Positions 6,478-8,959 of a stretch of DNA of 64,000 nucleotides are shown one piece after another. The stretch lies in contig NZ_BBJB01000065.1 in the NCBI RefSeq assembly GCF_016584665.1, forward strand, positions 1 to 64,000, given 5' to 3'. Every line of letters begins with the position of its first letter. The stretch's first letter is position 1. A program made the translations under genes and the position numbers. This DNA comes from Pseudanabaena sp. lw0831. Lineage in GTDB: Bacteria > Cyanobacteriota > Cyanobacteriia > Pseudanabaenales > Pseudanabaenaceae. The notes below the pieces were generated by a model. The model saw nothing but the letters and a program-made list of their open reading frames with translations, ran no database searches and was not told the DNA's origin.

Positions 6478-8037
6478 TCATTCATAAACCACTTCAAAGG
6501 CTGATAGTTTGTCAGCTTTCCCTTTTAAGGATAACTCACCAACAGAACGACAGGAGATTTTGTCTTGCACAGCCGTAAAAGTTTCCTTGCTGATTAATAT
6601 CTGTTTAGCAATAGCTCTACTTTCAAGACGTGCCGCCACATTCACGACATCACCAAGGACAGTATAGTCCATTCGACGTTCGCTTCCCAAACAACCAGCT
6701 ATAACTTCTCCTGTATTGATGCCGATGCCAAGATTGATAATATCTGTGTTAATCCTCATCTTGTTGATTTCAGCTACCTTGTGTTGGATGGCGATCGCAC
6801 AACTAACTGCTCTTATTTCCTGATCGATTTGTTCGGTTGGAGCACCGAATACCAGCATAATTGAATCTCCAATAAACTTATCAATTGTGCCTTCATATTG
6901 GAAAACAATTTCAATGATGTCTTGAAAGTACCTGTTAAGTAGTGCAAAAATATCATCAGGAGAGGCAGTTTCGGCATAGGATGTGAAGTTACGAACGTCA
7001 CAGAACACACAAGTTACTTTACGTCTTTCACCTGCAACGATCTCGGCAAAATCTGAGCTGTGCATAATCCGATCCACCACCTGCCGAGTGACAAAGCGGC
7101 TGAACATGTCTTGCATTTGGGCTGAGCGATATTTTTCATGTTCGAGTAGATGTTGAACACGCAGTAAAGGGTTTTGAGTGATGAATCTCTTGTAGGTATT
7201 AACCCCAACCTGTTTCGATCTCAAAAGGCTTCGAGAAAAGTCTTGGATTGTCTGATGTTTAGTAATTGGTAAAGGTGTAAGAATACTTTTTTCTAAATAA
7301 TTCTGTAAAATTGGTCGTGTCTCATCATCAATCTGTAAAATTTCGTAGGTAGCACATCGACCTTTTGTTCCTTTTTGTTCACAGATCTCACAGCCCACTT
7401 CTTGCCATAGTTCTTCTGAGTGATGAGTACTGGGGTCTAACAATTGCATTGATTCGAGACTTACTTGAATTGGGCGCGCACAATTTGAACATAAGATAGG
7501 TAAAAGTGCCTGTGACCAAATACAAGAAAATAGCTGAAGAATTTCCGAGTAATTTATTCCTTTCCAATCTCGAAAACTGTAGACAACATCAATCCCTATA
7601 TAAGGTGTGTCAATACTAGTAAAGATCCATCGTTTTTGTTGAGCTGCAAGAAAGACTGCACGATAGTTTCTTGAGTCCATTCTGTCAAAAACAAAAATAC
7701 TAGAAGAATCTTGAATTGAATTTTCTATTGCTTCCATCCAAGCGATTTCTGTCGGTGTAACAATCTGAATTGACCAGTTTTCTGGTAGTTCACAATAGAA
7801 ATTCAGATCTTCTGTAAAAAGTTTGACTGGTAATCCTGACTTGGTAAACTCTTGTACAATTGCTAATAAAATTGTGAGCTTACCTGTTTGAGTTTGACCA
7901 GTAGTGGCAAAAATGCCAGGTGAGCATTTCAGGATTCTTTGCACAAACTCTAACTCTAAGGTTGAAGTTGATGGAATCAAGTCTAGAAATGGAATTATAC
8001 CTTGAAGTTTCGCGATTATAGGATTAGGAGGTTCCAT
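6478..8037 (-). CDS. GspE/PilB-like ATPase domain fused to class III adenylate cyclase
   Basis: 519 residues in two parts. Residues ~30-240 resemble the motor ATPases of type II secretion/type IV pili: a P-loop (G47 to T55, GQTQTGKLT), an IFVFDRMDSRN segment at the Walker B position, a TSID stretch where the family His box sits, and a four-Cys zinc motif (C183-x2-C186, C216-x2-C219) with GRCATYEIL. Residues ~335-519 are a class III cyclase: metal-binding D347 and D391, substrate residues K387 and T459, and N466/R470. Lys with Thr is the class IIIb pattern of bicarbonate-responsive cyclases. No pilus genes are near. The domain calls are firm; coupling of a pilus-type motor to cAMP synthesis is inference. 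Confidence 0.85.
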   Translation of the reverse strand: MEPPNPIIAKLQGIIPFLDLIPSTSTLELEFVQRILKCSPGIFATTGQTQTGKLTILLAIVQEFTKSGLPVKLFTEDLNFYCELPENWSIQIVTPTEIAWMEAIENSIQDSSSIFVFDRMDSRNYRAVFLAAQQKRWIFTSIDTPYIGIDVVYSFRDWKGINYSEILQLFSCIWSQALLPILCSNCARPIQVSLESMQLLDPSTHHSEELWQEVGCEICEQKGTKGRCATYEILQIDDETRPILQNYLEKSILTPLPITKHQTIQDFSRSLLRSKQVGVNTYKRFITQNPLLRVQHLLEHEKYRSAQMQDMFSRFVTRQVVDRIMHSSDFAEIVAGERRKVTCVFCDVRNFTSYAETASPDDIFALLNRYFQDIIEIVFQYEGTIDKFIGDSIMLVFGAPTEQIDQEIRAVSCAIAIQHKVAEINKMRINTDIINLGIGINTGEVIAGCLGSERRMDYTVLGDVVNVAARLESRAIAKQILISKETFTAVQDKISCRSVGELSLKGKADKLSAFEVVYE

Positions 8038-8668: not shown

Positions 8669-8959
8669 TTAGCGAATATATCTAATAATTTCAGCTTTAT
8701 CTGTCAACCTAACAGAATCTGTTGTTGCTTCAATCATGGTCGCATGAGGAATAACTCGTTCCACATCAGTAATAGCACTAGAAATAGCCTCGGAAACAGA
8801 CGAAGCCTCACGCATAAAATTTAGTGCAATATACCCTTTATTCCCAACACCAATTAAAGCGTCATCACACCCATTTTCATAGAGTTGCTCAACATACTCA
8901 TTGGGGTCAACTTGTGAATCTGGGAGATTAAACTTCAACGTAAAGTCATAATCTTTCAT
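8669..8959 (-). CDS. Cyanobacterial DNA-binding-family protein lacking its HTH end
   Basis: 96 residues (YDFTLKFNLPDSQVDPNEYV, GCDDALIGVGNKGYIALNF, REASSVSEAISSAITDVERV). The N-terminal ~90 residues match a cyanobacterial family whose members usually continue, after the LTD-x-AEI step, into an AlpA/MerR-type helix-turn-helix and a C-terminal segment. Here the frame stops at TAA six residues after LTDKAEI, so the DNA-binding part is missing. I found no HTH continuation in the other frames. Either the gene is a truncated relic or the N-terminal domain acts alone, for example as a dimerisation module. Confidence 0.6.
   Translation of the reverse strand: MKDYDFTLKFNLPDSQVDPNEYVEQLYENGCDDALIGVGNKGYIALNFMREASSVSEAISSAITDVERVIPHATMIEATTDSVRLTDKAEIIRYIR

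Follow-up and report, generated by a model that had tools for sequence, protein, structure and literature searches.

The locus at 6478-8037 raises the question of whether a pilus or secretion motor ATPase is really joined to an adenylate cyclase in one protein and, if so, what a motor domain does in such a place. The window, the whole stretch of DNA that we analyzed, is 64,000 nucleotides long, and the gene (6478..8037) lies on its minus strand, as do all of the parts of the gene described below. The reading frame runs from 8037 to 6478, starts with ATG, has zero internal stops and encodes a 519-aa protein made up of a T2SSE C-terminal domain, a helical linker and a class IIIb adenylate cyclase, an assignment based on the intact ORF, Pfam and full-length relatives. 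In Pfam, T2SSE (PF00437) matches residues 29-254 (E 2.2e-12; score 46.7 bits, cut-off 24.9) and Guanylate_cyc (PF00211) matches residues 337-509 (E 2e-30). Both families are matched in 11/11 members of our alignment A1, where the best T2SSE E-value is 1.2e-25. Among NCBIfam models, the N-terminal half is nearest to GspE, TfpB and PilB, with scores far under their equivalog cut-offs. Including the window's own, we found 12 distinct full-length fusion proteins, and an assembly or annotation chimera is ruled out by these full-length relatives in independent genomes. The two-domain fusion protein is real and conserved, which confirms the fusion of a motor-type ATPase and a cyclase that an earlier note had read from the letters of this DNA.

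The N-terminal half (residues ~29-290, 7168..7953) is a GspE/PilB-type ATPase C-terminal domain without N1 and N2, as judged from PF00437, hmmsearch, AlphaFold and Foldseek. Its profile is collinear with residues 142-402 of EpsE (hmmsearch, 1p9r, E 5.5e-27), and the solved structures nearest to it by sequence are V. cholerae EpsE and PilF. AlphaFold predicted this half with a pLDDT of 86.7 and a pTM of 0.85, a result that depends in part on the sequence match, as GspE rows were included in the alignment. Foldseek placed EpsE, GspE-GspL, PilB and PilF at the top of the matches to this model, with E-values down to 1.9e-18 and TM scores of ~0.65-0.70 of the query. The earlier note would have been overturned by a fold other than that of GspE, and the fold we obtained is that of EpsE and PilB. 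A model of the full-length protein, made from a shallow alignment, has low confidence at the domain junction. Because the PF00437 match starts at profile position 131 (it spans positions 131-340 of 370 only, with none at positions 1-130), we consider N1/N2 to be missing; the protein starts ~25 residues ahead of the C-terminal ATPase domain, and N1/N2 are absent from every member of the family.

What is missing or replaced can be read against G. metallireducens PilB, in which E357 is a Mg ligand and E395 the catalytic Glu, R271 and R286 are arginine fingers supplied by the neighboring packing unit on the N2 domain side, T411, H413 and H420 form an inter-chain site, and R455 touches the neighboring unit (PMC5424180). 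Our mapping to this protein was anchored on H420 and recovered T327, E395, T411, H413 and R455 in five GspE/PilB sequences. The N2 domain with the arginine fingers R271/R286 is missing from the fusion. The Walker-B-like stretch IFVFD (residues 114-118, 7684..7698; residue mapping and counts) has D118 in place of the catalytic Glu, and across the family E395 is replaced by Asp in nine of the 12 members and by Thr in one, with Glu in two, so an acidic residue is found there in 11/12. The Asp-box residue E357 is Asn, Asp, Thr or Tyr and is replaced in 12/12, in a loop with indels where the register is soft. R397 has become Leu, Asp or Met, T411 is lost in all members, H413 is Arg in eight, His in three and Tyr in one, H420 of the HIS box is Asp in 11 and Glu in one, and R455 is Pro in every member. 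The altered Walker B Glu and His box suspected in the earlier note are found throughout most or all of the family, and the P-loop, Walker-B-like stretch, four zinc cysteines, K387 and T459 that it listed are all present.

Other features are retained. The P-loop (GQTQTGKLT, residues 47-55, 7873..7899; alignment A4 and residue counts) keeps its Lys, K53 (K331 of PilB), in 12/12 members. A strict Walker A ends GK[ST]. In the window's protein the GK pair with K53 is followed by L54; Leu at this position (T332) is found in 4/12 members, all in the window's clade (the window's protein and three close relatives), and the other eight have GKT or GKS. The two zinc pairs, C183 and C186 (residues 183-186, 7480..7491) and C216 and C219 (residues 216-219, 7381..7392), both assigned from residue counts, are conserved in 12/12 fusion rows and in 26/26 GspE/PilB rows. 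The family has also gained features of its own. Residue counts identify a family-specific motif, W137-I-F-T-S-I-D-T-P-Y-I-G-I-D150 (7588..7629), that replaces the HIS box; W137, P145, G148 and D150 are invariant in 12/12 members and D143 is present in 11/12, at positions where L, N, A, S and H predominate in GspE/PilB. In all, 21 positions, including these four, are invariant in 12/12 members yet unlike the GspE/PilB majority. The dN/dS ratio is 0.15-0.39 in the N-terminal half and 0.07-0.12 in the C-terminal half, so both halves are under purifying selection. Taken with the 21 new invariants, this argues that the N-domain is repurposed rather than decaying. Between the window's gene and L012, dS is 0.68 in the N half and 0.23 in the cyclase half, an inequality that suggests intragenic recombination or gene conversion.

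Residues 290-326 (7060..7170) form a linker helix and a segment like a cyclase-transducer element, based on a predicted helix at 290-313, where the prediction has low confidence, and on the resemblance of MFSRF in the window's protein to the FGRY motif; the members carry FSRF or FGRF. The class IIIb adenylate cyclase catalytic domain follows (residues 337-509, 6511..7029; PF00211, nearest structures and residue counts), with D347, K387, D391, T459, N466 and R470. The first five of these residues are conserved in 12/12 members and R470 in 11/12, and from its catalytic residues the cyclase is complete and looks active. In L044 (Aegiribacteria), the position of the catalytic Arg R470 is His, which may impair catalysis. 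Class III cyclases occur with many kinds of sensor domain, and in the others that we found GAF, PAS, CHASE2, Cache/HAMP or FHA domains stand where the fusion has its N-domain. The nearest structures are Cya2 (2w01), a Cya2-derived construct (6fht) and Pseudomonas CyaB (3r5g). The cyclase-transducer element and FGRY motif have been described before, as has the guanylate cyclase Cya2, which has Glu at the K387 position and gains adenylate cyclase activity through E488K (PMC5995499); given that difference, ATP is the predicted substrate of the fusion cyclase. Thr at the T459 position is regarded as predictive of bicarbonate regulation (the Thr rule as cited in PMC3383692). The K387/T459 pair behind the earlier label of a bicarbonate-type cyclase is present in 12/12 members, but the Thr is not specific: it also occurs in 20/20 cyclases from elsewhere and in 4/7 other cyclases checked in this genome. 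A bicarbonate response is a possibility that the fusion would share with many cyclases.

The 12 members come from a wide range of genomes. Besides the window's protein there are three congeners (G002, G021 and G008) that are 82-83% identical in alignment A1, two more congeners (G003 and G020) that are 53-54% identical, proteins of RS_10_39 (L040), Symploca SIO2C1 (L041) and Nodosilinea FACHB-131 (L042), one from the order of Nodosilinea (G509, L105), and two from Fermentibacterota-type MAGs (L043 and L044, 41% identical). The domain order, which the earlier note had proposed looking for across cyanobacteria, is therefore found in Pseudanabaena, Symploca, and Nodosilinea and a relative, and also beyond the phylum, in Fermentibacterota (two members) and one other phylum. 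We found the fusion in 6/26 Pseudanabaena genomes, in at least 2/386 genomes of a phylum sample in which six candidates were scored per genome, in 2/42 genomes of the phylum of L044, in 3/65 genomes of the order of Nodosilinea (one of the three being a broken copy), and in 1/22 and 1/7 genomes of two further sets. Five genomes of the 386 were over threshold, and three of these had ordinary GspE/PilB of 587-689 aa. Ordinary GspE/PilB score at E ~1e-27 or weaker and full-length fusion members at 1e-92 or better. In a Nodosilinea relative (L106, G507:C6), the fusion gene is broken, with its frame split over two ORFs and its 5' part unmatched. Members are scattered, and the counts are probably too low, because a peptide-pattern scan missed L105. 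No N-domain without a cyclase was found in the searches of the genus, phylum and order samples, and no copy covering 80% of the query was found among 72,556 plasmids.

In a tree of the N-domain, the 12 fusion rows form one clade against 26 GspE/PilB rows with support of 100/100, and in a tree of the cyclase the same 12 rows form one clade against 27 other cyclases with support of 100/99; finer statements are limited by the long branches in the N-domain tree. L040 groups with L043 and L044 in both trees, and in both the congeners G003 and G020 stand beside Nodosilinea and L105, away from the window's group. Based on these groupings, the trees suggest at least one transfer of the fusion between lineages.

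The surroundings of the gene vary. We saw no conserved gene neighbor and no pil or gsp genes beside the fusion in five congeners and five distant loci, and an operon with pil/gsp genes is ruled out at all loci read. The window's gene order is kept in G008 only, and in G002 and G021 the fusion gene is flanked on one side by an RNase II gene and on the other by what we take to be the ribosomal protein S4 gene. Upstream of the window's fusion gene is a 96-aa ORF (8669-8959, minus strand) with zero Pfam matches, and a 64% identical relative of it is found directly before the G002 fusion gene (L093 9415-9729); these are two loci only, and the product is a possible small partner of the fusion protein. 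Elsewhere in the window, two pairs of near-identical 60-nt direct repeats (2716-2775/3977-4036 and 3022-3083/4046-4107, 92-97%, 1.0-1.3 kb apart) look like a partial duplication of two adjoining small genes, of which the second copy appears truncated and out of frame. Ordinary motors are also encoded in this genome, with three full GspE/PilB proteins and two that are PilT-like. It gives ~20 other class III cyclase matches, and 13 cNMP-binding domains score above the Pfam cut-off and might serve as receivers of the cyclic nucleotide. Three class III cyclase genes lie in a row at G000:C82:1241-6958. Co-occurrence with pilB and pilT, another check proposed for this locus, holds to the extent that ordinary GspE/PilB are present in this genome, but it does not discriminate, as congeners without the fusion have them too.

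The reading that we favor, with somewhat better than even confidence, is that of a soluble class IIIb adenylate cyclase that acts as a homodimer and takes its input from a GspE/PilB C-terminal domain that is no longer a motor. The domain would have retained its fold, P-loop Lys and zinc finger while the parts that build and drive a hexamer were lost, and we assign it the role of input module because it occupies the slot of GAF, PAS, CHASE2 and similar domains in other cyclases. It would most likely bind nucleotide (ATP/ADP) or another ligand and change shape, and the signal would reach the cyclase dimer by way of helix 290-313 and the cyclase-transducer segment and adjust its activity. For the cyclase we infer catalytic activity, ATP preference and dimerization, together with the ability of the N-domain to bind nucleotide and the direction in which regulation runs, and coupling through the linker would follow the example of other cyclases. 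Nucleotide binding may be weak or absent, because the window's clade has Leu for the Walker A Thr and none of the 12 members keeps the Asp-box Mg ligand. Against this reading, no conserved neighbor supports a pathway at the loci read. The earlier note had suggested a pilus or secretion motor that could report its state, which would here mean that a hexamer of N-domains hydrolyzes ATP and that its turnover is reported as cAMP. The P-loop Lys of all members and the acidic Walker B residue of 11/12 would suit such a device, but N1/N2 and the arginine fingers are absent, the catalytic Glu, H420, R397 and R455 are replaced, and residues for the hexamer and for hydrolysis are lost in nearly every member. 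Class III cyclases work as dimers, with a symmetry unlike that of a hexameric motor. We reject a working motor on the missing N2 domain and the residue losses and give this reading almost no credence; of the ideas in the earlier note, its hedge that the ATPase part might serve for sensing or docking is the best fit.

If the N-domain were instead a functionless, decaying remnant, the protein would be an unregulated cyclase. In that case one could point to a dN/dS in the N half that exceeds the value for the C half by a factor of ~1.7 to 5.6, to the Walker A substitution fixed in the window's clade and to the broken copy in the Nodosilinea relative, but the ratio stays at 0.15-0.39, and the 21 family-specific invariants and four zinc cysteines are kept from Fermentibacterota to Cyanobacteria, so we find decay improbable. 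We have similarly little belief that the cyclase domain is the main sensor, of bicarbonate or CO2, with an N-domain that sets only oligomerization or location: T459, the predictive residue (PMC3383692), is universal in the family, and cyanobacterial Cya1 and CyaB1 respond to CO2/bicarbonate (PMC10117731), but a Thr shared with the outside cyclases and with most of those checked in this genome does not single out the fusion. The main rival, unlikely in our judgment and still deserving of attention, is a docking module. Here the N-domain would mainly bind a part of the T4P or T2SS machine, such as a PilB subunit, PilC or another motor partner, and cAMP would be made at the machine and regulated by its assembly state rather than by a small ligand. 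The retained PilB/GspE fold and zinc finger and the full motors of the own genome are consistent with this, and GspE/PilB-like genes were found at E<=1e-15 in 5/6 other fusion-bearing genomes checked, the exception being Symploca (G431), where only the fusion passed. In Synechocystis, cAMP controls pilus-based motility via Cya1 and SYCRP1, and PixE binds PilB1 (PMC7076178). Docking is at odds with the lack of linkage to pil or gsp genes at any locus read and with the same motors in fusion-free congeners, and R455, T411 and H420, the inter-chain residues, are lost in all members, making hexamer packing by the usual contacts unlikely. Allowing for either kind of input, we see about an even chance that a single event turned a motor ATPase domain into the allosteric input of a cyclase and that the two then spread between phyla as a unit, in a family that would turn nucleotide state, or contact with a T4P/T2SS machine, directly into cAMP.

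Apart from one mention of MshEN, a motor-derived P-loop domain is not among the cyclase sensors that we found described, and we found no description of this fusion in the open-access literature; one may have appeared in a subscription journal. The fusion illustrates how a motor domain can be retained in a regulatory role after its motor parts are gone. Given that cAMP controls cyanobacterial pilus motility, possible feedback from motor to cAMP becomes testable in a small soluble protein that combines the two. Compared to GspE/EpsE and PilB/PilF (PF00437; 1p9r, 4ksr, 5tsg, 5oiu), the fusion shares the fold, the P-loop Lys, the four-Cys zinc finger and ~265 collinear residues, but it lacks N1/N2 and the arginine fingers, has replaced the catalytic Glu, HIS box, R397 and R455, carries a C-terminal cyclase and forms a separate long-branched clade. 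With class IIIb cyclases that have N-terminal sensors (Pseudomonas CyaB, 3r5g; cyanobacterial Cya1 and CyaB1/CyaB2) it has in common the core, the Lys/Thr pair, the metal Asp pair and a transducer-like segment, whereas a GspE/PilB-like P-loop domain occupies its sensor position in place of GAF, PAS, CHASE2 or HAMP. The catalytic domain is very close to those of Synechocystis Cya2 (2w01) and the engineered phytochrome-Cya2 E488K (6fht), with phmmer E-values of 3e-38 and 8e-41, and differs from Cya2 in having K387 where Cya2 has Glu. No MshEN domain is found in the fusion protein by Pfam, and there is no room for one before residue 29. The nearest precedent found in the literature is the MshEN-cyclase fusions, which are mentioned briefly in PMC5013675 and likewise join a pilus/secretion ATPase module to an adenylate/guanylate cyclase; those use the N-terminal c-di-GMP-binding MshEN, whereas the family described here uses the C-terminal P-loop/zinc domain.
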